Shown: positions 1,992 to 18,390 of the stretch, one piece after another
Numbering within the stretch: position 1 is the first letter of the stretch
How the letters are laid out: every line of letters begins with the position of its first letter
Origin: an uncultured Alphaproteobacteria bacterium
Lineage (GTDB): Bacteria; Pseudomonadota; Alphaproteobacteria; Parvibaculales; Parvibaculaceae
Length of the DNA stretch: 36,946 nt
Assembly (NCBI GenBank): GCA_903889655.1
Contig: CAISYL010000035.1
Span: 1-36,946, forward strand
Reading direction: 5' to 3'
Notes under the pieces: generated by a model
Seen by the model: only the letters and a program-made list of their open reading frames with translations
Told to the model about the DNA's origin: nothing
Databases searched by the model: none
Made by a program: the position numbers and the translations under genes

Positions 1992-3965
1992 ATGTCGAGA
2001 GTGCTTGTGACCGGGGGGGCGGGGTTTATCGGGTCCGCCGTCTGCCGGTTTCTGGTCCAGGAGACGATGGCGGAGGTCGTCAACGTCGACAAGCTGACCT
2101 ATGCGGCCAACCTGCACTCGCTCGATCCCATCGCGGGGCATGCGCGGTATCAGTTCGAACGGGCCGACATCTGCGACGCGGCCCGCATGGAAGAGATTTT
2201 CCAGCGTCATGAACCCGACGCCGTGATGCATCTCGCCGCGGAATCCCATGTCGATCGCTCGATCACCGGCTCGGGCGATTTCATTCAGACCAATATCGTC
2301 GGCACTCATGTGCTGCTCGAGACGGCCCGGCGTTACTGGGAAGGCCTGCCGCCTGAGCGGCGCGACGCCTTCCGCTTCCTGCACGTCTCGACCGATGAAG
2401 TCTATGGCACGCTCGGCGCCGACGGTCTCTTCGCCGAGACGACGCCCTACAGTCCCAACTCGCCCTATTCCGCGAGCAAGGCTTCGGCCGATCATCTCGT
2501 CAATGCGTGGCACCATACCTACGGCCTGCCCGTCATCATCACCAATTGCTCGAACAACTACGGGCCTTATCATTTTCCCGAGAAGCTGATCCCGCTGGTC
2601 ATTCTCAATGCGCTGGAAGGCAAGCCCCTGCCCGTCTATGGCAAGGGCGACAATGTACGCGACTGGCTCTATGTCGAGGATCATGCTCGCGCGCTCGAAC
2701 TCGTCCTGCGCGAAGGCCGCCCTGGTGAGAAATACAATGTCGGCGGGCGCAACGAGCGGACCAATCTCGGCGTCGTCGAAGCGATCTGTGACCATCTCGA
2801 CGAGCTCGTTCCGTCGAACCTGATCGGGCGGCGGCGCGATCTCATTACCTTCGTGACCGACCGGCCGGGGCACGACAAGCGCTATGCGATCGATGCGAGC
2901 AAACTCGAACAGGAACTGGGATGGCGAGCGCGGGAGACGTTCGATACCGGGTTGCGCAAGACGGTCGAGTGGTATCTCGACAACGAGCAATGGTGGAAAC
3001 CGTTGCGTGACAAGGTTTATAGCGGCGAACGCCTTGGGCTATTGCCGTTGAAGCGGAAACAGGGCGATGTCCGCCCGATCCTCGTCATCGGCAAGACGGG
3101 CCAGGTCGCAAGTGCGCTCGACGCGCGCGGTTTCGGCGATGTTCCTCATGTGGCGCTCGGGCGGGAGGATGCGGATCTCGCGTCGCCGGAGATGCTGAGT
3201 GCCGCCTTCGCCGCCCATCGTCCCTGCCTTGTCGTCAATGCCGGCGCCTATACGGCGGTCGACAAGGCCGAGAGCGAGCCGGCGCTTGCCTTTGCGATCA
3301 ATCGCGACGGCACTGCGCGGCTTGCCGAGCTCTGTGCTGTAGAGGGCGTTCCGCTCATCCATATCTCGACCGATTACGTCTTCGACGGCACGAAGCCGGC
3401 GCCCTATGTGGAGGACGATCCGATCGCACCGCTGAACGTCTATGGCGCATCGAAGGCCGAAGGCGAGATCGCTTTGCGCGAGCGGCTGCCGGCGCATGTC
3501 ATCCTGCGGACAAGCTGGGTCTATAGCAGCACCGGCGCCAACTTCGTGAAGACGATGCTTCGGCTTGGAGCAACACGGGACGAGCTCACCGTCGTCGCCG
3601 ATCAGATCGGTTCACCCACGGCGGCTGACGACATTGCCGAGGCCATCATCCTGATCGCGGGTCGGCTTCTTGCTGGCACCGGCGAATTCGGCACCTTCCA
3701 CATGACCGGTTCCGGCGAAACGAGCTGGTACGGCTTTGCGCAGGCGATTTTCGCGCAGGTCGCGGCAAACGGTCAGAAGGTGCCCGCCGTGAAACCAATT
3801 CCAGCGAAGGATTATCCGACACCGGCACGACGTCCCGCCAATTCCCGTCTCGACTGTTCGAAGCTCGAGCGGGCTTACGGGATCAGGCTGCCGCATTGGC
3901 AGACGAGCCTTGAGCGATGCCTCGCCGTGCTTCTGCGGACCACAACTTTGGCGCATGTTTCATGA
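1992..3965 (+). CDS. rmlB/rmlD: Fused dTDP-glucose 4,6-dehydratase / dTDP-4-dehydrorhamnose reductase (RmlB-RmlD)
   Basis: Two cytoplasmic dTDP-L-rhamnose enzymes in one 657-residue chain. Residues 1-350 are RmlB: the NAD-binding GGAGFIG near the N-terminus, [19 protein letters not shown], and the catalytic YSASKA. From about residue 361 comes RmlD: the VIGKTGQV nucleotide-binding start, [20 protein letters not shown] and the catalytic YGASKAEGE, then a full C-terminal half. Both halves have normal length for single enzymes, so this is a true fusion, not a truncation. Start ATG 1992 is chosen because AAGGGG lies just upstream and the Rossmann fold begins at once; an in-frame start at 1968 has no such support. 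The stop overlaps the rmlA start (ATGA), so the two are translationally coupled. rmlC (the 3,5-epimerase) is absent from the window. Confidence 0.95.
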
Positions 3966-4837
3966 AGGGCATCATTCTCGCCGGTGGGTCTGGCACCCGC
4001 CTCTATCCAGCGACCGTCGCGGTGAGCAAGCAACTCCTCCCGGTCTATGACAAGCCGATGATCTATTATCCGCTGTGCACGCTGATGCTCGCGGGGATCA
4101 GGGACATCCTCATCATCTCGACGCCGGTCGATCTGCCGCTCTTCGAGCGCCTTCTCGGTTCCGGCGCGCAATGGGGGCTCAACCTTTCTTATGCGGAGCA
4201 GCCGCGCCCGGAAGGCCTGGCGCAAGCCTTCGTTATCGGCGCGCCGTTCATCGGCGACGATTCCTGTGCGCTCATCCTCGGCGACAATCTCTTTTACGGC
4301 GATGGACTCGCGGCAAAACTGCGCCGGGCGGCGGCCGACGACGCGGGCGCCACGGTCTTCGCCTATCATGTGAGCGATCCCGAACGATATGGTGTCATCG
4401 AATTCGACAAGGCGTCGAACGTCCTGTCGATCGAGGAGAAGCCCAAGTCGCCGAAGTCGAACTGGGCGGTCACTGGTCTCTACTTCTACGATAACAGCGT
4501 CGTCGAAATCGCCAAGGCCGTGAAGCCGTCCGCGCGTGGAGAACTCGAGATCACCGACGTCAACGGAACCTATCTTGCGCAAGGCCGGCTCAAGGTCGAG
4601 CATCTCGGCCGCGGTTATGCGTGGCTCGACACAGGCACGCATGACTCGCTGCTCGAGGCAGGCGAGTTCATCAGAACGATCGAGCACAGGCAGGGCGTGA
4701 AAGTCGCCAGTCCCGAGGAGATCGCCTTTCAGCTCGGCTACATCTCGCCGGCGGAACTGCGGCGGCTCGGTGAAAAACTCGGGAAGTCCGCCTATGGGCG
4801 ATATCTGTTCCGCCTGCTCGACGAGGCCGATATGTGA
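3962..4837 (+). CDS. rmlA: Glucose-1-phosphate thymidylyltransferase RmlA
   Basis: Makes dTDP-glucose from glucose-1-phosphate and dTTP, the first step of dTDP-L-rhamnose synthesis. The 291-residue length is typical. The N-terminal [16 protein letters not shown] is the nucleotidyl-transferase signature; further on are [16 protein letters not shown], the [10 protein letters not shown] metal-binding stretch, [20 protein letters not shown] and [10 protein letters not shown], all diagnostic of the short RmlA family. The ATG overlaps the rmlB/rmlD stop by four bases. A longer in-frame ORF starts at 3917 but its first 15 residues do not belong to the family. It is convergent with the next gene, only 6 bp away, with no obvious terminator between them. 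Confidence 0.97.
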
Positions 4838-4843
4838 TCCCGC

Positions 4844-6997
4844 TCAATCTCCGGTGCGTGAGAGAGCCTTGGCGATACGGAAGAGAATGCGTGCCGAGCG
4901 ATAGACGATCGGCTTGTTCAGCAGCTTTTCGGCGATGCGTTCGATGCGCTCCGACAGCATTCGCGCGGCAAAGCCGGAATTGGTGATCGGTTGCGCCCTC
5001 ATTCCACGTTCCGAGGCGATGTCGCTGACGAACTGCACCGCCCTGACCCGCTCGACGATGCGCTCGTAAGTGACTCGTGAAAGAGCTTCTTCGATGCCGG
5101 CGCGGAGTTCGCGCGCAACGCGTGCGGCGCCGTTATCGGGCCTGGGCTGGCGCGTCGGCTCGACCCAAACAGGAACTGTTTTCAGGCGCTCGATCAGATC
5201 GGTCGTATTTTCGTAGAAATGAATATTGGGGTTGCGGCCGATTTCTTCCCACAGCTCCTCGAAGACCGGCAACCTGCGTATGAAAACCGGGCGCTTCGCC
5301 GCCAGCGCATTCAGGATCGGAATGCCGAAGCCTTCGTAATGTGATGGGAAGATCACGGCGCCGGCCTGCGAGTAGAGATTGGCGATTACGTCATCCGAAA
5401 GTTCGCCGGCCGGAACGGATTTCAAGTTCGGCATGTCCAGAAATCCGGACGGTGCGTATCGTCCCTCGTCAGGCGGTGGGGATGAAGCCTTATCGGCGCC
5501 CAGCGCAACGATGGTGCGCGCCGGATAGGCGACGCTCAATGCATTGGTGGTCGGCGCGACATATTTGTGTGGATAGTGGTTGCCGACGACGAAGAGATAA
5601 CCCGCTTCCGCGACAGGAGATTGCGACGCCGAACCGCTGTTCGTCAGCGCGTAGTCTGAAATATCCAGCGAATGCATAGATCGCGTACGGACCACAGAGG
5701 GACCATAGCTGAAGCGCCGCTCGAACTGGCCGGTGGTCTCGATGCTGTTGGTGCCGACGACATCGAACTGCGAAAGTGCGAATTGCCATATGTTGAAGAG
5801 ACGCGTCGAGTAGATTTGCCCGCAATCGACCGAAATGGTGTCGAGCATGAAGATGCCGATGCTTGTACCCTTGACGACCATTCTTTCGATCGAATTCCAG
5901 TCGTAGGGCTGCCCCATACGGAACATTGCGGCATATTGCTGGTCGTCATGGGCACCGTGGCGGGCGATGCCATATTCCGCATAGCCGTGAAAATCGTAGA
6001 CCTCGCGCGAGCAGATGACGTGGACATTGAATCTGTCGCGCCAGCTCTTCGCAGCCTCGCGAAGCAGGTGTTTGCCGACCTCATAAGTGCCGTTATGCGA
6101 CGGGCCGAATGTCGAGAAATCCAACGCCAGATCGATCTTGCCGTTCTTGTCGGGGATGAGCTTTCCTAAAAGGAGCTCGGCGACATATTGCGGCGAATGA
6201 AAATAGGCGTACGTCAGGCTCGCAAATTCGGGATAACGGCCCAGAAGGATTGCGCGGTTTCTTTCCTCGCGCTTCGACTTCGGGACGCCGCTCGTGCTGA
6301 AAGACTGCTCTCCTTCGTGCCATACATAGGCTCTGTTCGCGAGAACGGCGCGATAGCCGCAGCGCGAGGCCCGCATGACCAGATCGTTTTCTTCGTTGTA
6401 TCCGCCGCCGTAAATCTCGTCGAAAAAACCAAACTCGGAAATGATTTCCCAGCGTATCAGCATGCAGAAGCCGATCGCGGTCGGGACGTAACTCATCTCC
6501 GGTAGATACGAAGCGACCGCCTTGTAACCTGCATAGGCGGTTTGGGGATCGGCGGTCCTGTAGCTCGCCTGGTGGGGCAGCGACGCGAGCGTCGCATTGT
6601 TCGAGCGCGGGTTGACGAAACCGATCATCGGATCGAGCGTCGAAACACGCTTCATTTCGGACAGGGCGCCCGGAAAAACGACGGTGTCGGAATTCAGCAA
6701 AAGAACATCGAAGCGACGCGCGGCGGCTTCCCCGAATGCGGCGTTCATCGTGCCGACGAAGCCGAGATTGTGTGTATTGGTTTCGACCCGGCACGGGAAG
6801 GCGCGCGCCGCGGCGGGCAGAATTGCCGCAAGTGCTTCGCTCAGCGGCGCATGATCGGGAGAGTCGTTGTAGAGCACGATCTCGGCGCCCATGGCCGTGA
6901 TTTCACTCGCGCAATCCATCAGCGACGAGACCAGCCGCTGGACGAGATGCGGGTTCTTGTAGAAGGGAATGGCGATGAGCACCGGTCTATCAGACAT
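4844..6997 (-). CDS. Two-domain glycosyltransferase, GT2 fused to GT4
   Basis: Cytoplasmic glycosyltransferase with two catalytic modules in 717 residues. Residues 4-250 form a GT2 (GT-A fold) domain beginning LIAIPFYKNPHLV, with a DxD-like NSDT at 102-105 and the acceptor-side NEENDL at 201-206. Residues 288-640 form a GT4-like (GT-B) domain: YLFVVGNHYPHK near 468, then FPSHYEGFGIPILNAL near 550, which holds the donor-binding E-x7-E type motif. It could add two successive sugars, one of them perhaps rhamnose. Start is uncertain: ATG 6997 begins the GT2 fold directly; in-frame ATG 7096 and GTG 7126 are possible, and none has a convincing ribosome site. Divergent from the SGNH-like gene. Confidence 0.88.
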   Translation of the reverse strand: MSDRPVLIAIPFYKNPHLVQRLVSSLMDCASEITAMGAEIVLYNDSPDHAPLSEALAAILPAAARAFPCRVETNTHNLGFVGTMNAAFGEAAARRFDVLLLNSDTVVFPGALSEMKRVSTLDPMIGFVNPRSNNATLASLPHQASYRTADPQTAYAGYKAVASYLPEMSYVPTAIGFCMLIRWEIISEFGFFDEIYGGGYNEENDLVMRASRCGYRAVLANRAYVWHEGEQSFSTSGVPKSKREERNRAILLGRYPEFASLTYAYFHSPQYVAELLLGKLIPDKNGKIDLALDFSTFGPSHNGTYEVGKHLLREAAKSWRDRFNVHVICSREVYDFHGYAEYGIARHGAHDDQQYAAMFRMGQPYDWNSIERMVVKGTSIGIFMLDTISVDCGQIYSTRLFNIWQFALSQFDVVGTNSIETTGQFERRFSYGPSVVRTRSMHSLDISDYALTNSGSASQSPVAEAGYLFVVGNHYPHKYVAPTTNALSVAYPARTIVALGADKASSPPPDEGRYAPSGFLDMPNLKSVPAGELSDDVIANLYSQAGAVIFPSHYEGFGIPILNALAAKRPVFIRRLPVFEELWEEIGRNPNIHFYENTTDLIERLKTVPVWVEPTRQPRPDNGAARVARELRAGIEEALSRVTYERIVERVRAVQFVSDIASERGMRAQPITNSGFAARMLSERIERIAEKLLNKPIVYRSARILFRIAKALSRTGD

Positions 6998-7277
6998 ATC
7001 CGGGGCCGGCACTTCGTCCACAAGCCTTGCGGTGGCGATGCTTCCGGTCAGGGGTGCCCTGTCTCCACTCAAACTGTACCCCCTTGAACCTGTCATTCGA
7101 CGCAGGTTAACCCTGATCCCCAACACTCGCGCCGAAAAAGCCTCGAAGGCAGTCCGCTCCCACCGGATTCTCTCGCCGGATCGTGCTCTTCTCGTCCCCC
7201 GGCACGTTCAAGCAGGCTAGTCACGGCTACCGCGGGTGTCAATTCGGCGGTACTGTCCCCGTGGGGAATTCCATACC

Positions 7278-7284
7278 GGGAGGT
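7278..7284 (+). promoter_or_regulatory. Strong Shine-Dalgarno site before a non-canonical start
   Basis: GGGAGGT, a near-perfect anti-16S match, lies five bases before CTG 7289 and one or two bases before ATT 7286. No ATG, GTG or TTG exists in the downstream gene's frame between the upstream stop at 7085 and position 7514, so this site supports initiation at CTG 7289 (or ATT 7286). Confidence 0.6.
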
Positions 7285-7288
7285 CATT

Positions 7289-8035
7289 CTGAGCGTCGAT
7301 TTTCTTCAGCTGCGTCGCTCCGTCGGCCGTCTGATTTCCAGACCTCGGCCGCTCGTCTGCATTGGACACAGCCACACCCGCTCGGTCGCGGCGGCGGCGG
7401 CGGCGCAAGGCGTCGAACTGACCAAGATCGATTTCTGGGCGCATCCCAATCCGGTCGACCGGGAAAATGGCATCAGCCGATTTCGTACGGAGATCGATAG
7501 CAAGCTGGAGGGGGTGATCTTCTCGATGATCGGCGGCGTCGCCCACAACATGATGGGTCTCGCCGTGCATCCGCGACGTTTCGATTTCGTTTTGCCGGAC
7601 GCGCCCGACCTGCCTTTCGACGAACGGGCGGAGCTTGTGCCATATGAAGCGGTGCGTGCGAGTTTGCTCGCAATCACGCAACATTATCTCGACCTGATGG
7701 CGATCGTCGGAGCGACCGGACGGGGGCGTATTTTTCATATCGAGGCTCCCCCTCCCTATGCAGACGAGGCGCGGATGTTGATGGATGTGCCCTGGAACTA
7801 TTTCACGGGAATGCAACGGGAGGTCTCGCCGCGTTATCTGCGTTACAAGCTCTGGCGTCTTCATTCGGACATCGTCCGGCAGGCTTGCGCGCGCATGGGC
7901 ATTACCTTCATCGAGCGACCGATCGAAGCGGTCGATGTCGATGGGTTTCTCCGCGATGATTATTATCTGGACACGATGCATGTAAATGAAGGCTATGGCG
8001 CGCTCGTGCTTCGCCAGATGCAGGAGGTCGGATGA
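7289..8035 (+). CDS. SGNH/GDSL-hydrolase-like protein, probable CTG start
   Basis: A 248-residue protein if started at CTG 7289. Residues 23-30 read VCIGHSHT, resembling SGNH block I (GDS/GHS); GGVAHN at 82-87 resembles the block III Gly/Asn region; DTMH at 228-231 fits the block V D-x-x-H dyad. The family is used for esterase or acyl-transfer steps on polysaccharides; the substrate here is unknown. The first canonical start is GTG 7514, but that would remove block I, while the open frame upstream reads as good protein and carries GGGAGGT at the right spacing before CTG 7289. Six consecutive GCG alanine codons lie at 7388-7405. The stop overlaps the next gene's start (ATGA), so the two proteins are made together. 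Confidence 0.72.
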   Translation: MSVDFLQLRRSVGRLISRPRPLVCIGHSHTRSVAAAAAAQGVELTKIDFWAHPNPVDRENGISRFRTEIDSKLEGVIFSMIGGVAHNMMGLAVHPRRFDFVLPDAPDLPFDERAELVPYEAVRASLLAITQHYLDLMAIVGATGRGRIFHIEAPPPYADEARMLMDVPWNYFTGMQREVSPRYLRYKLWRLHSDIVRQACARMGITFIERPIEAVDVDGFLRDDYYLDTMHVNEGYGALVLRQMQEVG

Positions 8036-9084
8036 AGCACCCCTATGCTGATGCTCCGCCCTATCGACGCTGGAGCCGCGCCGTTGCTGCGGTTCCGCCG
8101 GGCGATGTCGATCCCGTGGTCTCGCTGCCCTTCAGGATTTCGACGTCAGATCGAATCGTCACGGCGGGAAGCTGCTTCGCGCAACACATCGCGCGGCACT
8201 TGCAGCAGAACGGTTTCGCCTTTCTCGTGACGGAACCCGCTCACCCGCTGGTTCCGGCCGATATGGTCGAGGCGATGAATTACGGCATCTACAGCGCACG
8301 TTACGGCAACATCTATACCGCGCGGCAATTGCTTCAGTTGCTTCGGCGGGCCTATGGACGGTTCACGCCGAGGGACGATGTCTGGGAGAAGGATGGCCGT
8401 TATTTCGATCCTTTCAGGCCGTCGATTCAGTCCGGCGGTTTTTCGTCGCTGCGCGAATACCGGCTCGACCGGGAGCAACATTTCGCGGCCGTCCGGCGCG
8501 CCTTCGAGGAGATGGATGTCTTCGTCTTCACGCTGGGCCTTACCGAATGCTGGGTGTCGCGGGACGATGGCGCCGCCTATCCGGTCTGTCCAGGCACCGT
8601 AGCCGGCGAGTTCGACGAAGCGCATCATGCCTTTGTGAATTTCTCGGTCGAAGACGTCGTTGCGGATATGACGGTGTTTTTTGCCGAGCTGAAGGAGGTC
8701 AATCCGCAGGTCAAAACGGTGTTGACCGTTTCGCCTGTGCCATTGGCAGCGACCGCCGAAGATCGTCACGTTCTGGTATCGACGACTTATTCGAAGTCGG
8801 TGCTGCGTGTCGCCGCCGATATGCTCGCGCGCCAGCCCAACATCTTCTATTTCCCGTCCTATGAAATCGTCACGGGAGCGTTTTCCCGGGGAGATTATTT
8901 TGCCGACGACCTGCGCTCGATCCGCGAAGATGGCGTGGAGCATGTGATGCGACTTTTCTTCCGTCATGCGACGGACCGGACGGACAAGCCGGTGGCGGCC
9001 GAAGCGGTCGCGGACCCGTTCCTCAACGACATGCGTAAGGTCGTCGACGCGATCTGCGACGAGGAAAAACTAGATCAGGACTGA
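8032..9084 (+). CDS. GSCFA domain protein (SGNH-like, glycan modification)
   Basis: A 350-residue member of the GSCFA family, named after the motif seen here as TAGSCFAQHIARHL (GSCFA at residues 46-50). The family is related to SGNH hydrolases and is usually found near polysaccharide genes; no biochemical role is firmly set. Other conserved-looking parts are MNYGIYSARYGNIYTARQL, FVFTLGLTECW and VLTVSPVPL, the last two matching the family's central strands. No signal peptide, so it is cytoplasmic. The ATG overlaps the stop of the SGNH-like gene by four bases, a strong sign that the two work in one step or complex. It is convergent with the coiled-coil/YPDVA gene. Confidence 0.88.
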   Translation: MKHPYADAPPYRRWSRAVAAVPPGDVDPVVSLPFRISTSDRIVTAGSCFAQHIARHLQQNGFAFLVTEPAHPLVPADMVEAMNYGIYSARYGNIYTARQLLQLLRRAYGRFTPRDDVWEKDGRYFDPFRPSIQSGGFSSLREYRLDREQHFAAVRRAFEEMDVFVFTLGLTECWVSRDDGAAYPVCPGTVAGEFDEAHHAFVNFSVEDVVADMTVFFAELKEVNPQVKTVLTVSPVPLAATAEDRHVLVSTTYSKSVLRVAADMLARQPNIFYFPSYEIVTGAFSRGDYFADDLRSIREDGVEHVMRLFFRHATDRTDKPVAAEAVADPFLNDMRKVVDAICDEEKLDQD

Positions 9085-9124
9085 TGAACCCGATGAACGG
9101 GGGCGGCCTGGCGGTTGTCGTTGC

Positions 9125-10231
9125 CTATGCCGATCGCTTCTCGCGTTCTTCCGCCTGGCCGTAGCGCAGATAGTGAACAAGAGGATTGAGGCCGGACTTC
9201 GCCACATCGGGATAGCGCGAAAGATAGTGGCTCGTTGAAAAATCGGGGCCCGGATCGCGGCCATCGGCGACGCCGTGTTCAAGATAATGCAGCGCCGGAT
9301 CGTGTCCGGCCGTGGCCACATCAGGATAAGTTCGCCTGTACCAGTCGGCATCGAGCAGACCGCTGGCACGGATCAGCGCAATCTCTTCCCGCTGCCGTGC
9401 AATGCCTTCGCGAATTTTCCTCCGTGTGGCGGGACGAAGGCGGTTGACGATCATGATGGCCCTGCCCGCCATGCGCATGGCGCGAGGAGACCGGTCAGCG
9501 ATATTCCGTAGACGTCGGAGCATCCGGCCTTCGATCGAGCGATTCCACGCATCGAGTTCAGTACGCAATGCATCTCTGACAGCGCCGGCCTCCGCGATTT
9601 CGCTCTGTTGCCGGCCAATGAGACGCTGTGCATCCGACAGGCGATTGCTGAGATCGGCCATCGCCGCCTGATTGTCACGCATGACACGGTCGTATCCCGC
9701 TGCGCGCTTGCGCGCCAAGCGGAGCTCGGTTGCTTGTGTTGCCGCAAGGTTGGCGACGATCGGGGCGAAAGTCATCTGCTCGATCAGTCCGCGGGTAGCC
9801 GGTTCGATAGGATCGTTCTTTCGATAGAGAACCGCGAGCCCGTCGAAGACGGGCAAGAATGCCGTCGCAAAGGCGCCGCTGCCGCGAGCGGCGAAGTTCT
9901 CGATTGTGTGCTTGATATCGCGGTCGCCACTGCCGAGCTGCAGATCGATCAGGGTGATCGGAAAGGCGCTTCCTACGGTCGATGCCTGTGCATCGAGCGC
10001 GGTGAGCACACGATTGACGACATCTGCCTGGCCAGCAAGCAGGACCAACCCCGCCGAAGGGAATGCGACCGATGTGACAGGCGATTCGGCCCATTGAACC
10101 ACCGGGCTCAGGGCTTCGGACCGCTTCCGAAGGGCGTCGACCTGCAGAGAGGTCAACCCTACAGCGAGGATCGAGCTGGGCCGGACGCTGCGCGCCAACG
10201 GTTCGATCACTTCATTCCAGAAACAGTCCAT
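9125..10231 (-). CDS. Coiled-coil protein with two C-terminal YPDVA/HYL repeats
   Basis: Function unknown. The N-terminal 170 residues look like a degenerate Rossmann-type fold (SILAVGLTSLQVDALR and an Asp-rich strand LIDLQLGSGD), perhaps a worn methyltransferase. A charged helical stretch follows (LRLARKRAAGYDRVMRDNQ and on to RQQSEIAEAGAVRDALRTEL), likely a coiled coil. The last 76 residues are two tandem repeats of the pattern YxxxYPDVAxxGxxPxxHYLxxG, a module often seen at the ends of glycosyltransferases and rhamnan-type synthesis proteins. Start ATG 10231 is preferred because the extra 35 residues from ATG 10336 look like translated non-coding DNA; neither has a good ribosome site. No membrane segment. 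Confidence 0.75.
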   Translation of the reverse strand: MDCFWNEVIEPLARSVRPSSILAVGLTSLQVDALRKRSEALSPVVQWAESPVTSVAFPSAGLVLLAGQADVVNRVLTALDAQASTVGSAFPITLIDLQLGSGDRDIKHTIENFAARGSGAFATAFLPVFDGLAVLYRKNDPIEPATRGLIEQMTFAPIVANLAATQATELRLARKRAAGYDRVMRDNQAAMADLSNRLSDAQRLIGRQQSEIAEAGAVRDALRTELDAWNRSIEGRMLRRLRNIADRSPRAMRMAGRAIMIVNRLRPATRRKIREGIARQREEIALIRASGLLDADWYRRTYPDVATAGHDPALHYLEHGVADGRDPGPDFSTSHYLSRYPDVAKSGLNPLVHYLRYGQAEEREKRSA

Positions 10232-10374
10232 CGAAGGTTTGATTCCATTCCGTGAGCCGGCGGCGATGATGTCTTGCGTATCGGGGCGCGTCAAATTGCG
10301 TGGCTGCGCCCGATATGGGCGGCGCGCAAGATGCATTTGGTTAATCGGATACGGCTTGCCTCATCGTTCCGTGT

Positions 10375-10402
10375 GGCCCTAGTCTTCGCGCATCCTAGGG
10401 CC
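10375..10402. promoter_or_regulatory. Perfect 8-bp inverted repeat upstream of the PhyH gene
   Basis: GGCCCTAG (10375-10382) and CTAGGGCC (10395-10402) are perfect inverted copies with a 12-base spacer. They lie in the 214-bp region between the divergent coiled-coil and PhyH-type genes, 43 bases before the PhyH start. This could be a repressor operator or a 5'-leader hairpin. There is no T tract, so it is not a normal terminator. Confidence 0.4.
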
Positions 10403-10445
10403 TTGCGGCGCGATCGAGGCGGCACTTGGAGAGGGAGAGGACATT

Positions 10446-11531
10446 ATGTCGGCATGGCGGAATTTTGCCGCAGCTTCGGCCCGGTTGCTCGGTCTGCAAG
10501 ACCGCGGGGTCGCGGCGTCGGGCGGCGGCGCGAGTGCCGCGGATGCGCTCGCTTATGCCGAAGCGCTGGCGGCCGATGGGCGCATTCTCGATGCCATTGC
10601 CTATGCCACCGAACAGAACCGCCGCTTTCATGACGGAACGCTCGAATGGCGACTGGTGCAATGGCGCCGCGAGGCTTTTGCCTCTCTCGGGACGCCTGTA
10701 CCACGTCCCGATTGGCCGCCTGCCCTTCCGGATCCCTTCCCGGGCCTTCAGGGTTTGCCCGAGATCGCGGCCGATGAACTGACGGCCGAAATCATGGGTG
10801 GCAGCATTCTGCATCATGGCTGCCTCGTTGTGCGCGGATTGCTCACGAAGCCCGAGGCCGAGCATTTCGTCGAGGGCATAGACAAGGCTTTGGAAGCCTG
10901 TGCGGATTCACGCGCGGGTGCGTCGATGGAAGATACGCTGCCATGGTACGCGCAAACGCCGATCGGCGATGATCCTTCCCGTGACTTTCTTTATCCGCGC
11001 GGCGTTCTGACGGCCGAGTCCCCGCGGATGCTGTTCGAGCTGCTGGAACTGTTCCAGAAGCGTCGGATCATTCAGGTCATCGGTGAATATCTAGGCGAAC
11101 GGCCGGCGCTCTCCGTCAAGAAATGCACGTTGCGCAAAGTGCCCGTGATACCTGTGACAAGCTGGCACCAGGACGGCGCATTTCTCGGGTCCGAGACGCG
11201 CACCGTCAATGCCTGGGTTGCGCTGTCGCATTGCGGCGTCGATGCGCCGAGTCTCGACATAGTGCCCCGCCGTATCCCCTATGTCGTTCAAACGGGATCG
11301 CATGGGAGCTTTTTCGATTGGGCGGTCGGCGATAAAATGGTTGAGATCGCCGCCGAAGGAACCCCCGTCATCATGCCGGTGTTCGAGCCCGGAGATGCCG
11401 TATTGTTCGATCATCTCTTCCTGCATCGGACAGGCGTGCGACCCGACATGTCGACGCATCGCTATGCGATCGAGTCATGGTTCTTCGCACCCTCGACCTA
11501 TCCGCACGACCGCCTGCCGCTGGTGATCTGA
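10446..11531 (+). CDS. Phytanoyl-CoA dioxygenase (PhyH)-family Fe(II)/2-oxoglutarate oxygenase
   Basis: A 361-residue protein with a PhyH-type non-haem iron site: SWHQDGAF gives H241 and D243, FDHLFLHRTG gives the distal H327, and THRYAIESWFF gives R339, which should bind the 2-oxoglutarate carboxylate. Family members hydroxylate lipids, amino acids and other small molecules; some act on sugar or glycolipid parts. The N-terminal 100 residues are an extra helical region rich in Ala. The start ATG 10446 follows GGAGAGGGAGAGG. It abuts the TylF-type methyltransferase with no gap, so a two-step hydroxylation then O-methylation is a fair inference. The substrate is not shown by the sequence. Confidence 0.88.
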   Translation: MSAWRNFAAASARLLGLQDRGVAASGGGASAADALAYAEALAADGRILDAIAYATEQNRRFHDGTLEWRLVQWRREAFASLGTPVPRPDWPPALPDPFPGLQGLPEIAADELTAEIMGGSILHHGCLVVRGLLTKPEAEHFVEGIDKALEACADSRAGASMEDTLPWYAQTPIGDDPSRDFLYPRGVLTAESPRMLFELLELFQKRRIIQVIGEYLGERPALSVKKCTLRKVPVIPVTSWHQDGAFLGSETRTVNAWVALSHCGVDAPSLDIVPRRIPYVVQTGSHGSFFDWAVGDKMVEIAAEGTPVIMPVFEPGDAVLFDHLFLHRTGVRPDMSTHRYAIESWFFAPSTYPHDRLPLVI

Positions 11532-12341
11532 TTGTCGCCCGAACGGTACTTGAACCTTCTCGAAGTGATTTTAACCGGAACGCTTATCGAAGACGTTCCG
11601 ATTCAGACGGAAGCTTACAAGGGCTTTTTCAAAGGCATGGCGAAGAGCATCTTCGGGCTGGAAGATCCACCCGAGGGTGAATATGCCAAATTCCATCGTG
11701 GAATCCGGGAGCACGGATGGGACTGGCCTTCGCGCGCCTTTACAATGACCGGAATGAAACGTCTGCGGAATTTCCGCCATCTCATCGAACGCGTCATTGC
11801 TGACGGTATTCCGGGCGACATTATCGAGACCGGCGTGTGGCGCGGCGGCTCAACGATCATGGCCAGAGCGGTATTGGCCGCCTTCGATGTAAAGGATCGA
11901 AAGGTGATTGTCGCGGACTCGTTCGAAGGGTTACCTCCGCCGAATGAAGCCGCATTTCCGTGGGACAGGGGTTCGGTCCTTCATACCTTCGAGGAGCTCG
12001 CCGTTTCTCTCGAGCAGGTTCAGGAAAACTTTCGGAAGTTCGATCTTCTGGACGATCAGGTCGTGTTTCTGAAAGGGTGGTTCCGCGATACCATGCTGCG
12101 TGTGCCGTCGGAGAAATTGGCGGTCATTCGCCTCGACGGTGACATGTATGAATCCACCATCGATCCGCTGAAGCATCTTTATGACCGGCTGTCGGTCGGC
12201 GGCTGGGTTATCGTCGACGACTATGGAGTGGCGGCTTTTTGCAAGGCCGCGGTGCATGATTTTCTCGACGGGCGGTCGATCGCGGCGGATATCCATCCAA
12301 TCGATGGAAGCGGCGCCTATTTCCAGAAGACGTCTGCGTAA
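11532..12341 (+). CDS. TylF/MycF-family O-methyltransferase
   Basis: SAM- and metal-dependent sugar O-methyltransferase of the macrocin methyltransferase family. Of 269 residues, DIIETGVWRGGS (about 97-107) is the SAM-binding loop, VADSFEGLPPP (about 128-137) is the family signature, and the metal ligands are in LDGDMYES (D201, D203) and VDDYG (D228, D229). In TylF/MycF these bind Mg and the sugar hydroxyls. The start is TTG 11532, directly after the TGA of the PhyH-type gene; the frame has no better start before the family's N-terminal region. Translation is therefore probably coupled to the gene before. In this setting it may methylate rhamnose or a neighbouring sugar. Confidence 0.92.
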   Translation: MSPERYLNLLEVILTGTLIEDVPIQTEAYKGFFKGMAKSIFGLEDPPEGEYAKFHRGIREHGWDWPSRAFTMTGMKRLRNFRHLIERVIADGIPGDIIETGVWRGGSTIMARAVLAAFDVKDRKVIVADSFEGLPPPNEAAFPWDRGSVLHTFEELAVSLEQVQENFRKFDLLDDQVVFLKGWFRDTMLRVPSEKLAVIRLDGDMYESTIDPLKHLYDRLSVGGWVIVDDYGVAAFCKAAVHDFLDGRSIAADIHPIDGSGAYFQKTSA

Positions 12342-12365
12342 CAGCGTATAGCCAGGCCGTCTTGC

Positions 12366-13256
12366 TCAGACCGCGGCGCTCACCTCGGAAAGCTTTTTCT
12401 TCAATTCCTCGATCTCCGCTGCCTGTGCTGCAAGCAACTTGCGCGCCCGTTCGAGTGCTTCGGTGCGTTGCGTAAGTTTTGTCCGGTAGGCCATCAGTTC
12501 GACGCGGACCTTCATTCCATCGTCTTCGAGTGCAATGCAGGCGTCGAGCAGGGCTTCCGGCGAGAAAAATCCGTCGAGTGCGGATTTGAGAATCGGGGTC
12601 ATGCGTTCGGCCGGAACGAGAATGCCCAGACCGTTGAAGAAAGGCAGCCGATAGAATGTGATCTCCGTGGATGACCGGCTGGCGATGAAATCCTCGATCG
12701 CGGTCAGTACACCGTTCTGCGGGCCACCCTCGTGAAGCGCGTTGGCGAAATCCGCATTCAAACCATTATCGACCAGTTCGGATATGCCGGGATACATGGC
12801 GCGATAAGCATAAGGATGCCGCTGCACTGCCAGCAGACCGGTCGGATTGTAATACATGTCGCGCCGCGCATAGGGCCATGCGCAGTCATGGGCGATGATG
12901 ATCGGCGGCGGGGAGCCCATCTCGGACGCGCGCCCGTAGAGCATCGTCAATTCCGTATAGACGGTATGCCAGTTGTGGTCGCCGTCGACGAAGGCGATGT
13001 CGGGCGGCGCGACCTTATCCAGCACATCGACGCTCTTGCCGACGTGGAGGCTGTGATGTTCGGGAAAGTTCGCCAGGACGTTCTTCAGCGCGTCGAGCGG
13101 CACGGGATCGACGACGTCGAGGTGTGCGCCCTTCTCACGGCAGTATTCGAGAATTCTTTCCGTGTTCCAGCCAAACTCGGCGCCGATCTCCAACATCCGG
13201 CGAGGTGCCGCCGCTTCGACGACGGCCTTGGTGTAACGTTTCCAGAAGCGATGCAT
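12366..13256 (-). CDS. Class I SAM-dependent methyltransferase with C-terminal coiled coil
   Basis: A 296-residue protein. MLEIGAEFGWNTERI (about 21-35) is the SAM-binding motif I, VVDPV follows strand 2, and IAFVDGDHNWHTVYTEL (about 88-103) is typical of the Methyltransf_24 group, with H and D residues that may bind metal. The last 43 residues, rich in Glu, Lys, Leu and Ala, form a likely coiled coil. ATG 13256 is preferred over the in-frame TTG 13262 because GAGG sits seven bases before it. The gene follows the GT2-CmcI gene in the same direction with only a few bases between, so they form an operon. Likely a glycan methyltransferase; the acceptor is unknown. Confidence 0.85.
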   Translation of the reverse strand: MHRFWKRYTKAVVEAAAPRRMLEIGAEFGWNTERILEYCREKGAHLDVVDPVPLDALKNVLANFPEHHSLHVGKSVDVLDKVAPPDIAFVDGDHNWHTVYTELTMLYGRASEMGSPPPIIIAHDCAWPYARRDMYYNPTGLLAVQRHPYAYRAMYPGISELVDNGLNADFANALHEGGPQNGVLTAIEDFIASRSSTEITFYRLPFFNGLGILVPAERMTPILKSALDGFFSPEALLDACIALEDDGMKVRVELMAYRTKLTQRTEALERARKLLAAQAAEIEELKKKLSEVSAAV

Positions 13257-13265
13257 CGTCAAGCC

Positions 13266-15677
13266 TCACAAGTGGTCGAGCGTGTCGTCATAGTCCTCGA
13301 GCCGCAGGATGTCCTTGGCCTTTTTCAAAAATCCGGACGGACAGGACGTTATGAAGTGCTGCGTTCGTGTCTGGTCGATTACGAAGGGGCCTGCGCCGTT
13401 CACGAACCTGTTGATGACGGCGAGATGCCAGTATTTCGAATAGCCGAGCCAGGGTTGGCCGTGAGCGGTTCTCAAATAGATCAGATAGGAGCCGTGGGAG
13501 ACAAATTGTGCATAGGCGGAGAGCTGCGCCACGGGAACATAGTCAGTCGGCTGTGGTCCGAATAGAACCAGCGTTGTTTCCTCTGCGCCGATGGCCCGAT
13601 CGATAGCCGCGAGCGTTACCGATGCATAGGGGTCGCCGACAATGATTTCAATGCGGCTGTTGGCCGGGGTGCTGGCCGAAGTGCCGGTCATGCGGACGAT
13701 CTTCGTCTCGCGCAGATCGAGCGCGTCCAGCACCGAACACATGTAGGAGACAAGGCCGTCTTCCACGCCGGTGGCGACGATGCGCGTCGGTCGTTGTTCC
13801 CGAATGATATCCTGAATGCTGGTGAGATCAGAGGGCGCGAGGTCGATCGGTTGGCCGAGCCAGTTCGTGCTCTTGTACGCCCCGCATTCGGCATAGGCAG
13901 ATTGAAGATAGATTTGCGCGTCTTCGTCGAAATGCTGCGGAACGTAGCCCGGTCTGATGTGCTCTGTTATGCCGAGATTTCCCGGGAAGAGCGGGCGCTG
14001 TCGCGCGACGAGGGCATATTGGGATCTGATCGAACCGCGCAATTTGATTTGCTGCGGTGGAACATTCTCGAACGCTCCGCCGCGGAGATCGCTATAGGCT
14101 GCGGAATAGGCCCGCACACGTATTTCCTTTTCCTGGTCGGTGACGTTGGTCGTCATGCCGCCATGGTACTGATGCATCGTCGCCTCGCCGACGAGGCAAA
14201 TGACGGCAGAGGCCGCGTCTGCGGCCCGGCGCATCAGATCGAGATTTGCAAAACCGGCGCCCGGCTCGCTGAAAGCCTCGTCTATTCCGCCGATCCGTTC
14301 GTAGACATGCCCCGGAATGAAAAGGCAATTGCTCTCGCTCAGGCCACCGAACCAGTAGTTGGGGCTCTCCAGCAGAGGCGCACTGATTTCGAATAGTCCA
14401 TATCCATCGGCCGGCCAACCGATACGGGCAAACAGCGCGTCTTCCCGCTCGCGCGTATAGCCGACGGATGAGAGCCAGCGCTGATCGCCGCCGACGAACC
14501 AATGCCGCGCCGCGACGACGCAATCCGGATCGGCATCGAATGCGGCAATGGCTTCTCGAAAAATACCGGGCGTCAGCACATGTGCACCGTCGATCATGAC
14601 CGCCACATACCGGCCTTTAGCCTGTCGCGCCGCTTCGTTGATCGCCGCGCAGGGCGATGGCAGCAGAACACTCGGCTTGATCAGTCTGAATTCCGGTCCG
14701 AAACTTTCTACCCATTCCTTTTCGAGCGGCGGGTTCGATCCGTTGTCGATGCACAGCACTTCATACGGCATGTCGCCGATGTCGAGTTGATAGCCGCGTG
14801 TGAGGGAAGCCAGCGTCCGCTCAGCCTCGCGTTTCATGTTGTAGAAGTTGACGATGATCGAGAACTGGGTTTTTGCGCCCGCCCATCTGCTCTGCTTCGT
14901 CTCTTGCCCGCTGCCGGCATGTTCGACCGCAGGCGGGAAGGCGACGGCGGACGGCCGCGGTCGCTCTTCCAGGCGCAGATAGATGGGACGGGTAAGAGCT
15001 GATGATGTGGCGTCGTCTACGTAGATATCGAACTCATGAATTCTGCCGTCATGGAGTTCCTCGGGAATGCGGACTTCGAAACCGCAACGGCCGTCCCCCT
15101 GCCGCATTTCAGCGAGATCATTGCGCCAGCGATTTGCCACCGTCGTGAAGGCGGGCCGTCCGTTCTCATAGAAGGTCAGGTTAGCTATATGGCTGAAATC
15201 GTTCGGCCACGAAACCCAGCCCGCCAGGAGGTCGGCATTCACCTGCTCGACGAAACCAATGGTGTCCATCCCATCGACCAAACGGGCCGGAGCAAGATTC
15301 TCGGGGTGGTTCGCCTCGAAGACTACGTCGGAATCCCTTGCGCTCGGGGTCCGAACGAGGGAGACAGGACTGCCGCGCAACTCTTTCACGCCTTCTTCGG
15401 CATGGGCACGGATGGCGAGCGGCGTGCCCAGCGGAAAATGCTTCGAGATCAGAATCTCGAAGCCGCAGAAGCCATCCCTTTTTTGGGCATGTTCGGCTTC
15501 GGGTCGGTAGAGACTCGCAGTTGTCGCGGCCAATACGCGGTCTCCAGCGACGACATCGATGAGGACGGGTCGGTCCGGTGCTGAGGGAAACCACGCCCAG
15601 CCGGTCAGCCGGTCGCCCGAGCAGCCTTCAACGCGCCCTTCCAAAGATGCAAGCGTAAACGATGCAGCGATGTTCAT
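13266..15677 (-). CDS. Multidomain GT2 glycosyltransferase with C-terminal CmcI-like domain
   Basis: An 803-residue protein with at least four parts. Residues 14-77 and 140-222 are two copies of a module with the pattern GxVxG, LxGW and GxCGFEI, probably beta-rich and common at the ends of glycan enzymes. Residues 270-520 are a GT2 domain starting FSIIVNFYNMKREAERTL, with MIDGAHVLTPG holding the DxD-like site. Residues 600-795 resemble the cephalosporin hydroxylase (CmcI) family, which also includes rhamnosyl O-methyltransferases: YKSTNWLGQPIDLAPSDL, IEIIVGDPYASVTL, SHGSYLIYLR and HFITSCPSGFLKK. The usual Glu of the SAM loop is replaced (VATGVEDG), so activity is not certain. It may add a sugar and methylate it. 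Confidence 0.85.
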   Translation of the reverse strand: MNIAASFTLASLEGRVEGCSGDRLTGWAWFPSAPDRPVLIDVVAGDRVLAATTASLYRPEAEHAQKRDGFCGFEILISKHFPLGTPLAIRAHAEEGVKELRGSPVSLVRTPSARDSDVVFEANHPENLAPARLVDGMDTIGFVEQVNADLLAGWVSWPNDFSHIANLTFYENGRPAFTTVANRWRNDLAEMRQGDGRCGFEVRIPEELHDGRIHEFDIYVDDATSSALTRPIYLRLEERPRPSAVAFPPAVEHAGSGQETKQSRWAGAKTQFSIIVNFYNMKREAERTLASLTRGYQLDIGDMPYEVLCIDNGSNPPLEKEWVESFGPEFRLIKPSVLLPSPCAAINEAARQAKGRYVAVMIDGAHVLTPGIFREAIAAFDADPDCVVAARHWFVGGDQRWLSSVGYTREREDALFARIGWPADGYGLFEISAPLLESPNYWFGGLSESNCLFIPGHVYERIGGIDEAFSEPGAGFANLDLMRRAADAASAVICLVGEATMHQYHGGMTTNVTDQEKEIRVRAYSAAYSDLRGGAFENVPPQQIKLRGSIRSQYALVARQRPLFPGNLGITEHIRPGYVPQHFDEDAQIYLQSAYAECGAYKSTNWLGQPIDLAPSDLTSIQDIIREQRPTRIVATGVEDGLVSYMCSVLDALDLRETKIVRMTGTSASTPANSRIEIIVGDPYASVTLAAIDRAIGAEETTLVLFGPQPTDYVPVAQLSAYAQFVSHGSYLIYLRTAHGQPWLGYSKYWHLAVINRFVNGAGPFVIDQTRTQHFITSCPSGFLKKAKDILRLEDYDDTLDHL

Positions 15678-15861
15678 GTCCCCACGTCACCGGCGGCCGG
15701 AATTCTGGCGCAGATTAACGCCCCCTGCTCCTCCCCACCATGTCTATAGGGCCATGATTTGGGCGTCAAAGGGCAATGATCCTTATGGCTAATGCGCGGA
15801 CGTGCGGCCGCGCTAGGCGCTTGAGTCAAGCCGCCGTCCTCCCTAACCTGCTGCTCGAACG

Positions 15862-16968
15862 ATGGCGGAGCGGCAGTTGATCTATCTTCATATCGGGCGA
15901 AACAAGGTCGGCTCGACGACGTTGCAGGATTATTTCTATGCCCGACGCGACGAACTCGCGGCTCATGGCATCACCTATGCGATGTTCGGACATATGCGGG
16001 AATGGCATCCCGACCTTCCTGGCTTCGCTTCTGCCGACGACCTTGCCGCCTATGCGCGCGCTCATCCGGACAGATCGGTGCTGGTGTCCAACGAATTCAT
16101 GTTTCCCTGGCCGCGCAGCTATACCGAAGCCGTTGTAGCTGCGCTCAAAGGCGTTGACGCCAAAGTCATCGCTTACATCCGGCCTTATGCCGAGTGGATT
16201 TCCTCGAATTATTCCTGGGAAATTCACATGGGCGTCAGCAGTCTGGATTTTGACCACTTTTTCGAACAGATCCGCGATGGCGTTTCCTGTTGGCCGGCAC
16301 TCGAAGCCTGGGGCAACGGCATGGGATGGGAGAATATGCACATCCGCTCGCTCGACCCGCGCTCGCTCCGGGGCGGCAATCTCATCTCCGATTGTCTCTC
16401 GGCGCTTGGCGTGGACTCCGGCGTCGAAGAATCTGCCCGGCAATTGCGCAGCAATGCGTCGCCGAACTGGATGGTGCTCGAACTGGTCCGGTCGCTGATG
16501 GATCAGACCAAAGATGTCGCATGGGACGATCCCTATTTCCGCACACATGTGCATCCGCTCAAGGAACTCATGGATCAAGCCATCGCCGCCAGCCCGAATG
16601 GCGGGATGCGAGCCCGGTATCACACGGCGGCGCAGCTGAGGTTTCTCGGTGAGTTGTATAATCGGGACATCAGTGCGATCGGCGAGAAGACAGGCGTCGA
16701 AATTCCGGCCATTCCGCTCAATCGAATAGAGGAGCGGCCCTTCCTGCCTTCGATCCGGATGATACCCAAGGATATTATGGCCGATTTTGCCGCCCGTGCG
16801 TCAGCACCGGCATTCCGGGAGAGATGGCCCGATGCCGCAGGGATAGCCCATATTGCGCTGGACGCCGTCGTTTTGCCCGCCTCCACGCGAAGCTGGGCAA
16901 AAATCAAAAGGTTCCTCGTGCCGGGGACCGTTCCGGACGAAGCTCCCTCCATTTCATCAGCGGGCTGA
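15862..16968 (+). CDS. Sulfotransferase-like protein
   Basis: A 368-residue protein with the two PAPS-binding elements of sulfotransferases: YLHIGRNKVGSTTLQ (residues 8-22), the 5'-phosphosulfate loop in its HIGxxKxGSTxLQ form, and VIAYIRPYAEWISSNY (102-117), the 3'-phosphate motif with R107 and S114/S115. The C-terminal 150 residues are not assigned. It would move sulfate from PAPS to a hydroxyl, most simply on the glycan made by the genes before it. ATG 15862 places the PAPS loop in its normal position, although no clear ribosome site precedes it. It is divergent from the GT2-CmcI gene across 184 bp and convergent with the thioesterase. Confidence 0.82.
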   Translation: MAERQLIYLHIGRNKVGSTTLQDYFYARRDELAAHGITYAMFGHMREWHPDLPGFASADDLAAYARAHPDRSVLVSNEFMFPWPRSYTEAVVAALKGVDAKVIAYIRPYAEWISSNYSWEIHMGVSSLDFDHFFEQIRDGVSCWPALEAWGNGMGWENMHIRSLDPRSLRGGNLISDCLSALGVDSGVEESARQLRSNASPNWMVLELVRSLMDQTKDVAWDDPYFRTHVHPLKELMDQAIAASPNGGMRARYHTAAQLRFLGELYNRDISAIGEKTGVEIPAIPLNRIEERPFLPSIRMIPKDIMADFAARASAPAFRERWPDAAGIAHIALDAVVLPASTRSWAKIKRFLVPGTVPDEAPSISSAG

Positions 16969-17436: not shown

Positions 17437-17823
17437 TCAGGGGAATGGCTGGGCGGCTGTCTTTTTATACTTTTCCTTACAGGCTGCAAATTCCTCGGAC
17501 ATGATGTCCATGCCCTTGCCCTCGCAGGACTGGCTCGCGCGGGATTCGATCACGCCCTTGTTCGTGCATTCCTTAAGGTCCGGATCGAAGAGCGCGATGC
17601 AGGTCATGGGGATGTAGCGTTCCTTGCAGGGCAGCTCGCGAATATATTTCTGCTGCTCGGGAGAGCGCTTGTCCCACCATTCCTGAAGCCTGCCTTCGGG
17701 CAGGCCGCGTGTATCGCTCTGCATGCAATCAGGCGCCTTGTCGGCATGGGCCGCCTGCGGAAACGACGTCCACGCCATCACGCCGAAGCCGAGCCCGAGC
17801 ACGGCCTGTACAAAAATCTTCAT
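17437..17823 (-). CDS. Secreted six-cysteine protein, paralogue A
   Basis: Function unknown. A 128-residue protein with a signal peptide (about residues 1-27, hydrophobic run then AAHA-D), so it is likely periplasmic. The mature part has six cysteines at conserved places: PDC, LPCKERYI, TCIALFDPDL, CTNKGV, SC and AC. That suits three disulfides. It shares the order of WW-x-KRS, LPCxERYI, TCI, DPDLxxCTNKGV, MS-x-E and the PPFP/QPFP tail with the next gene upstream, so the two arose by tandem duplication. Spacing is 60 bp and both face the same way. The small size and Cys pattern resemble small periplasmic helical proteins, but I do not recognise the family. Confidence 0.82.
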   Translation of the reverse strand: MKIFVQAVLGLGFGVMAWTSFPQAAHADKAPDCMQSDTRGLPEGRLQEWWDKRSPEQQKYIRELPCKERYIPMTCIALFDPDLKECTNKGVIESRASQSCEGKGMDIMSEEFAACKEKYKKTAAQPFP

Positions 17824-17883: not shown

Positions 17884-18294
17884 CTAGCTCGATGTGCCCG
17901 GAAATGGCGGCTTGAACGTCTTCTTGTATTCCTCGGTACAGTCCGCAAGTTCCTGCGACATCAACTCATAGCCCTTTGCCTGGCAGGCGTCGGTCGCGCG
18001 CTTCTGCGCGACGCCCTTGTTGGTGCAGCCGATCAGGTCCGGGTCGTAGAGAAAAATGCAGGTCAGCGCGATGTAGCGCTCGCTGCAAGGGAGCGAGACG
18101 ATGATGCGCTGTTCTTCCGCCGACCGGCGCTTCCACCAGGCACGGGCGCCATCCAGATTTTTGACGCGATCCGAACTCAGGCAGGCAGCAACGGCTTCGT
18201 CATTGTCCGCCGCCTTGGCGCGGCTTTGCTGCAGCCCCACGGCGAAGACCGCCGCAAGGACGAACAGGAATATGAATCGCACCGGAAATGTCAT
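17884..18294 (-). CDS. Secreted six-cysteine protein, paralogue B
   Basis: Function unknown. A 136-residue protein with a signal peptide (about 1-28, ending AKA-AD). The six cysteines sit where they do in the 17437-17823 protein: AAC, LPCSERYI, TCIFLYDPDL, CTNKGV, AC and DC, with the same WW-x-RRS and MSQE surroundings and a KPPFP tail. The core pattern LPC-x-ERYI-x-x-TCI is nearly invariant between the two. It is the first gene of the pair. Conserved cysteines and a shared charged surface argue for a common fold held by disulfides. Start ATG 18294 follows GGTAGGAGAT-like sequence on the minus strand, a fair ribosome site. Confidence 0.82.
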   Translation of the reverse strand: MTFPVRFIFLFVLAAVFAVGLQQSRAKAADNDEAVAACLSSDRVKNLDGARAWWKRRSAEEQRIIVSLPCSERYIALTCIFLYDPDLIGCTNKGVAQKRATDACQAKGYELMSQELADCTEEYKKTFKPPFPGTSS

Positions 18295-18390
18295 CTCCTA
18301 CCCTCCCAAATAGTAACTGACATTTACTACCCTAGCCGTTTCTCCGGCCGAGTGGAAGCGGCGGCGCCGTAGATGTGAGCGCATTTCAAC

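Follow-up and report, generated by a model that had tools for sequence, protein, structure and literature searches.

The stretch of DNA analysed here, called the window throughout, is the whole of a 36,946-base contig (C35; CAISYL010000035.1) from an uncultured alphaproteobacterium of the family Parvibaculaceae (G000; assembly GCA_903889655.1), whose genome is a 4.36-Mb draft in 294 contigs with completeness 100 and contamination 3.67. Between a tRNA-Ser gene and a PaaI gene, which border it 15.2 kb apart, the window holds a rare but genuine set of genes (1998-16968) with which this environmental bacterium would make and decorate a sugar chain containing rhamnose; the chain probably coats the outside of the cell. 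Because both flank genes match same-genus genomes (the left-flank MFS gene is 73–85% identical in four others, and the right-flank PaaI gene 71–86% identical in 25 of 26), the contig is native and not contamination. Pfam scans and reading covered part of the open reading frames (ORFs) of the window, and the MFS gene at 141-1619 was named by reading alone. The genes of the set and its left border are listed below, where L018/L019 denote two homologous loci in genomes of another genus and GT a glycosyltransferase family.

1689-1778, + strand: tRNA-Ser (anticodon tga; ARAGORN), left border of a variable interval; the same tRNA lies near the same flank genes in relatives
1998-3965, + strand: RmlB-RmlD fusion (dTDP-glucose 4,6-dehydratase and dTDP-4-dehydrorhamnose reductase), 655 residues; TIGR01181 and TIGR01214 over cut-off
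3962-4837, + strand: RmlA, glucose-1-phosphate thymidylyltransferase; TIGR01207 over cut-off
4844-7126, - strand: two-module glycosyltransferase GT2-GT1, 760 residues; Pfam matches, 52–53% identical in L018/L019
7289-8035, + strand: SGNH-motif protein (GHSH ... DxxH), by motifs; probable CTG start behind GGGAGG at 7278-7283
8032-9084, + strand: GSCFA-family protein (SGNH clan), 350 residues; Pfam PF08885, E 5e-55, 69% identical in L018/L019
9125-10336, - strand: eroded Methyltransf_24-like protein carrying a helical segment and, at its C-terminus, two YPDVA-type repeats; alignment to its L018/L019 partner
10446-11531, + strand: PhyH-type Fe(II)/2-oxoglutarate oxygenase, HxD...H intact; Pfam E 1.4e-6 and alignment
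11532-12341, + strand: TylF/NovP/MycF-type sugar O-methyltransferase; Pfam E 8e-93, NovP 2wk1 E 3.9e-68
12366-13262, - strand: Methyltransf_24 protein with an intact S-adenosylmethionine (SAM)-loop motif and a charged helical tail; Pfam and alignment
13266-15677, - strand: 803-residue protein with two N-terminal GWxW-type stretches, GT2 and a C-terminal CmcI-like domain without cofactor motifs; Pfam and alignment
15862-16968, + strand: predicted 3′-phosphoadenosine-5′-phosphosulfate (PAPS)-type sulfotransferase fold, 368 residues; fold matches of a second structure model, 42–44% identical in L018/L019

Gene content and conservation of the locus

An initial annotation of the window, made from its letters, had named three dTDP-rhamnose activities, two multidomain glycosyltransferases and a GT2-CmcI fusion with a methyltransferase gene beside it. 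RmlA, RmlB and RmlD each pass their family model, RmlB and RmlD being one fused protein; GT2-GT1 and GT2-CmcI both have Pfam matches, and the neighbouring gene belongs to Methyltransf_24. The PhyH and TylF proteins, which had been described as joined, are products of adjacent genes (11531/11532) and not a fusion. The alternating strands and short coupled pairs were also seen, with overlaps at 3962/3965 and 8032/8035, the abutment just mentioned and 3 bp separating 13262 from 13266. No 7- to 14-mer was common to the three divergent gaps (7127-7288, 10232-10445 and 15678-15861) at 0–3 mismatches, and their promoter- and terminator-like sites were not above shuffles.

A peptide-pattern scan of 84,980 species genomes, which detects close relatives only, found the two homologous loci, L018 in G002 and L019 in G001, both metagenome-assembled genomes (MAGs) belonging to another genus of the family. 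Each locus holds RmlB, RmlA, GSCFA, two SGNH-motif genes, GT2-GT1, the sulfotransferase, GT2-CmcI, Methyltransf_24 and PhyH. The place of the window's eroded protein is taken there by a second, intact Methyltransf_24 gene, and neither locus has a match to TylF. RmlC and RmlD were seen in L018 alone of the two, because the short L019 contig ends in rmlA (G001 is 68% complete). Identity to the window is 69% for GSCFA, 62% for RmlA (L018), 57–58% for RmlB, 50% for RmlD (L018), 57–60% and 44–45% for the first and second SGNH proteins, 55–56% for PhyH, 54–56% for Methyltransf_24 and 48% for GT2-CmcI, in addition to the values listed above, and the eroded protein is 25% identical to its partner in the locus comparison and 35% and 31% in alignment. 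Moreover, two blocks, one of GSCFA, SGNH and GT2-GT1 and the other of sulfotransferase, GT2-CmcI, Methyltransf_24, PhyH and the second methyltransferase-like gene, are each unchanged in gene order and strands across the three genomes when read on one strand; only the position of the two blocks is swapped between the window and L018/L019. L018 and L019 count as nearly one observation, because they are 84.6% identical DNA over 19.6 kb. The locus is nevertheless a real unit conserved across two genera, and since most of it recurs in another genus it is not a chance grouping; scattering of the genes in relatives, which had been named as the result that would speak against the set, was looked for, and most genes stand together in both genomes.

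The set is rare. Full-length GT2-CmcI is present in 3 of 40 family genomes (at E 1e-3 there are matches in 15, of which 12 are partial), and a gene-order search over the same 40 also returned three. In a class sample of 385 genomes the full-length protein occurs once, in the window's own genome (G001 and G002 were evidently not drawn), and the sulfotransferase profile matched five at E 1e-8, namely the own genome and four partial, distant matches. A search of 72,556 plasmids gave partial GT2-CmcI matches in 45 records, none of them reaching 80% coverage. A literature search on O-antigens and lipopolysaccharide (LPS) of Parvibaculum, GSCFA, WbdD, RmlB-RmlD fusions, sulfated O-polysaccharides and rhamnose operons showed no description of this locus among the papers listed, and one joining sulfotransferase, O-antigen, rhamnose, methyltransferase and Alphaproteobacteria returned nothing.

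The fourth rhamnose gene lies elsewhere in the genome: RmlC has one match over cut-off (G000:C271:2581-3093), one below it on C161 and none in the window, and it lies inside the rml set of L018. The RmlB-RmlD fusion is common to same-genus contigs G014:C19, G014:C10, G017:C11 and G030:C117 at 73% identity (in G030 the contig end truncates the gene). In G018, G024, G027, G033 and G037 the RmlB and RmlD parts share one frame with an internal stop (55–57% identity), and a series from separate to fused proteins within the genus is possible from these sequences.

Decoration enzymes and methyltransferase domains without cofactor motifs

Methyl decoration is supported by two proteins. Residues 53-267 of the 269-residue TylF protein match NovP (PDB 2wk1, E 3.9e-68) and MycF (4x7u), a full-length match in which the DGD and DDY acidic motif, which has a metal role in TylF-type enzymes, is present. 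Known TylF/NovP/MycF members act on antibiotic sugars, whereas the window protein stands in a glycan locus. The Methyltransf_24 protein at 12366-13262 keeps GAEFGWNT and GDHNW, and both enzymes are predicted to be active methyltransferases. PhyH is over its Pfam cut-off and its iron motif (H241, D243 and H327) is invariant in 3/3 sequences; a PDB profile search with it found nothing.

The GSCFA protein keeps its GSCFA motif, and the accessible part of a 2022 review (PMC9487903) gives no member of the family with a known function. Its coupled partner carries GHSH and DxxH, invariant in 5/5 sequences, and had no match in Pfam, in the PDB or in a profile comparison against GSCFA. The partner gene has a probable CTG start at 7289, 5 bases behind the GGGAGG; because the ORF finder was limited to ATG, GTG and TTG, the ORF list starts this gene 225 bases late, at 7514, and loses GHSH. 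The pair proposed earlier stands firmly for GSCFA and at motif level for the SGNH-like protein, and we infer a role in transfer or removal of an acyl group; the acyl decoration that had been assigned would follow from GSCFA family membership.

The product of 15862-16968 had been called a sulfotransferase, for which Pfam gave nothing beyond chance, either with this protein or with its two close relatives; two distant homologues out of four match Sulfotransfer_1 weakly, below its cut-off. A first structure model (3 sequences, mean pLDDT (predicted local distance difference test) 50) had no match at E 0.001 or better. The second model was built from 7 sequences, with the distant homologue L077 left out because no open frame was found in it, and reached a mean pLDDT of 64, with ten-residue means of 63–90 over residues 21-180 and values below 50 at residues 14-17, 188-216, 239-252 and most from 290 on. 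With this model VIA-align gave a best Z of 12.5 (rmsd, root-mean-square deviation, 4.4; 232 aligned; 10% identity) to heparan sulfate N-sulfotransferase, and sulfotransferases, Teg12 and Teg14 among them, filled 49 of the 50 rows listed. Thus a model of moderate confidence gives the protein a PAPS-type sulfotransferase fold over about residues 2-290, with an N-terminal HIGRNKxGSTTLQ loop. The fold is that of heparan sulfate N- and 3-O-sulfotransferases and the bacterial 3rnl, although identity in the best rows is ~10–16% and the protein falls below Pfam thresholds. A PDB profile search listed three sequences up to E 1; the best (3.8e-5) was a designed barrel, which was discounted, no stretch passing alone. 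The initial reading, a rhamnose glycan carrying methyl and sulfate groups, is supported by these results, sulfate through the modelled fold; a shared fold does not show the acceptor.

The 803-residue protein is over the Pfam cut-off for CmcI (PF04989), but the ETGxxxGGS-type loop, DSxH and the acidic strand end are replaced in 3/3 copies (window, L018 and L019). The loop and acidic residues of CmcI have roles in SAM and metal binding. The same motifs are kept in Rhodobacter, Tistrella, Sinorhizobium meliloti and two family comparators (two of five loci were counted, the others being without a correct frame), and GT2-CmcI of Rhodobacter sp. CZR27 also keeps them and matches CmcI 2br3 (E 7.5e-11); a PDB search for GT2-CmcI found nothing. 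Because the cofactor motifs are lost in all three copies, the CmcI domain is not to be counted as a methyl-adding enzyme, so that the methyl decoration assigned earlier holds for TylF and Methyltransf_24 and not for this domain. The protein at 9125-10336 can be aligned to its intact counterpart in L018/L019, the second methyltransferase, and has lost the SAM-type loop, VDP and GDHNW; by alignment its start may be at 10231. Repeats of the YPDVA type are known from further glycan enzymes of alphaproteobacteria, and a looser form stands behind the sulfotransferase-like domain of L078. A heptad-like period, of interest for a terminating enzyme on a long coiled coil, gave shuffle p values of 0.007 and 0.003 in the window tails, and 0.30 and 0.18 in the L018 tails. 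In a genome of the class, one open frame of 921 residues (L078 1495-3642) joins, by reading, a sulfotransferase-like domain, a helical segment, YPDVA-like repeats and a further domain.

Export, carrier and competing readings

No polysaccharide exporter is present among the window ORFs scanned or read, as the initial annotation had also stated. Wzm/wzt genes, which it had suggested seeking nearby, were found in relatives and elsewhere in the genome: in G002 (L034) an ABC-2 permease Wzm (PF01061), an ATPase Wzt (PF00005) and a 694-residue GT2 protein lie directly before the rml genes, with a GT9 heptosyltransferase ~3 kb before the permease and HldD, HldE, CysN with an APS (adenosine 5′-phosphosulfate) kinase, CysD and KdsD ~6–14 kb behind the locus (names based on Pfam domains and on reading). 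The GT2 protein also matches the frame 18319-18348 over 10 residues, 9 of them identical, at E 0.37, which was taken as chance. The window's own genome has one Wzm/Wzt pair on C242, beside GT1 and GT2 genes (GT2 by reading), in which Wzm is 38–41% and Wzt 51% identical; a Wzm homologue is found in 10 of 40 genomes of the family and in 3 of 27 of the genus, and that of the window genome is the best match within the genus. The earlier term "modification set" is too narrow: since the locus also holds sugar-nucleotide genes and two GT proteins, and an exporter adjoins it in G002, we prefer to read it as the part that synthesises a glycan for export. With a modest degree of belief, we lean towards a locus that synthesises and decorates a rhamnose-containing surface glycan exported by an ABC transporter, most likely the O-antigen of LPS.

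In such a pathway RmlA and RmlB-RmlD, with RmlC from the other contig, would make dTDP-L-rhamnose, and sugars would be added at the cytoplasmic face by the GT2-GT1 protein and the GT2 of GT2-CmcI. O-methylation of sugars would fall to TylF and the Methyltransf_24 protein, PhyH would hydroxylate some position, the sulfotransferase would add sulfate from PAPS and the GSCFA/SGNH pair would transfer or remove acyl groups. Both the CmcI-like domain and the eroded methyltransferase-like protein may act without catalysis, perhaps recruiting partners, and the Wzm/Wzt pair would export the product. We infer the enzyme activities on real substrates, the order of steps, LPS as the carrier and the pairing with the C242 exporter.

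Several observations weigh against this reading. The own-genome exporter is on a different contig, and its linkage to the locus was not seen. The G002 Wzm/Wzt cassette (1832 bp; L034 15806-17637) is a 99.5% duplicate of L051 9094-10925, a second cassette at C3:972 kb in another glycan cluster, and because of this near identity the adjacency in G002 may be one recent event; moreover, the only Wzm found in G001 (68% complete) sits in a context like that other cluster. LPS-core-type neighbours were seen in G002 alone, with none in the window and the G001 contig too short to tell. Wzt_C (PF14524) was found in 0 of 40 family genomes, and the two Wzt proteins (253 and 257 residues) show the ABC ATPase alone in Pfam. 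For the sulfotransferase, Foldseek with the second model gave a single match at E ≤ 0.001, to sulfotransferase 3rnl (9.8e-4), and its next rows were sulfotransferases mixed with other P-loop proteins.

That the same genes make a capsule or exopolysaccharide, through this ABC exporter or a Wzx/Wzy system elsewhere, and not an LPS O-antigen, is a possibility to which we give roughly one chance in four. A sugar transferase, a Wza-type export protein and a Wzz protein lie ~15–25 kb behind the G002 locus, a GT2-CmcI with intact motifs stands beside rfbABCD on a Rhodobacter plasmid carrying Wzz and tyrosine-kinase genes, and rhamnose operon, biofilm, plasmid and Rhodobacteraceae co-occur as terms in the literature; however, Wzm/Wzt are the closest export genes to the G002 locus, which has genes of LPS-core type on either side. 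A cytoplasmic protein-glycosylation set, acting on flagellin, pilin or an S-layer, would need no exporter and none is seen in the window, and such enzyme families occur in those sets too. We consider it improbable, with an exporter adjoining the G002 locus and no flagellar, pilin or S-layer gene among the scanned and read genes (part of the ORFs) of the window, L018, L034 and L035.

Compared with known systems, the locus is an unusual recipe of a familiar kind, that of the ABC-exported rhamnose glycan. In the accessible part of the account of Klebsiella pneumoniae O7 (PMC11231755) there are, as here, rml genes, wzm/wzt, GT2 modules in multi-module proteins and a methyltransferase linked to a helical segment. 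In comparison with O7 as described there, Wzt here is without a carbohydrate-binding domain, the set has no Pfam-recognised kinase domain, PhyH, TylF, the sulfotransferase and GSCFA/SGNH are added, strands alternate and the exporter is unlinked in the window genome. That part of the same paper gives the carbohydrate-binding C-terminal domain of Wzt as present in all terminated examples. WbdD-type capping was tried as a family label and rejected because Wzt_C is absent from the family, although the set may still operate in a comparable manner. The two methyltransferase domains without cofactor motifs, one fused to a GT and one free with a helix and YPDVA-type repeats, might instead be chain-length rulers or scaffolds for decorating enzymes, in place of the capping enzyme and Wzt sugar-binding domain of capped ABC systems, a suggestion that we regard as a long shot. 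The Rhodobacter sp. CZR27 plasmid locus (NZ_CP023550.1) likewise places rml genes (rfbABCD) beside GT2-CmcI and other methyltransferases, but its CmcI motifs are intact where ours are lost, and no PhyH, TylF, GSCFA or sulfotransferase appears among the 22 features given for that stretch in plasmid gene tables that are not complete.

Given the great diversity of surface-glycan loci, one more is no surprise in itself. The value of this one lies in the grouping of methyl, hydroxyl, sulfate and possibly acyl decorations in a unit conserved across two genera, in the coupling of a GSCFA protein, of a family without known activity in the accessible part of the 2022 review (PMC9487903), to a probable SGNH partner, and in a clean, genetically testable example, within glycan assembly, of methyltransferase domains that have lost their cofactor motifs. 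The latter domains and the GSCFA/SGNH pair merit a test, not a claim.

The tRNA-Ser interval

The interval that follows the tRNA-Ser is variable in content. We compared 16 stretches from 15 same-genus genomes, of which 15 stretches (all except L067) were scanned for tRNAs and 13 hold both tRNA-Ser and PaaI. The distance between the two genes is ~2.3 kb in G036, ~2.7 kb in G024 and G033, 3.2 kb in G014, 10.2 kb in G012 and 10.4 kb in G031, and these six longer intervals hold unrelated genes, read by eye. In seven genomes (G013, G015, G017, G019, G023, G026 and G028) the tRNA is only ~58–72 bp from PaaI and points the other way relative to it, and this opposite orientation ruled them out as simple "empty sites". 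Neither the Pfam scans nor the reading of window ORFs turned up an integrase. Site-specific integration at the tRNA was set aside, since no more than 11 bases of the tRNA 3′ region recur exactly at another place in the window. The GC content of the set is 60.0%, compared with 63.3% and 61.9% on its two sides and 59.5% further on, a difference that is weak support at best for foreign origin.

The variable interval, the eroded protein at 9125-10336 and the location of RmlC and the exporter elsewhere would fit a horizontally acquired set that is decaying in the window genome, with the full glycan no longer made. We think this very unlikely: the frames of the set are open, the motifs of GSCFA, PhyH, TylF and Methyltransf_24 are kept, and the loss of the CmcI motifs is not recent decay because it is common to all three genomes.

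Two minor observations concern the borders of the interval. In two relatives, ORFs read by eye as GT25 glycosyltransferase-like (in two ORFs) and FkbM methyltransferase-like (L053 5729-6526 and L065 4921-5754) sit between the tRNA-Ser and the MFS gene, and would be glycan genes at the same site. Beside PaaI in the window, 17437-17823 and 17884-18294 encode two tandem, related, small secreted-looking proteins, whose matches adjoin PaaI in the same-genus stretches that hold it.

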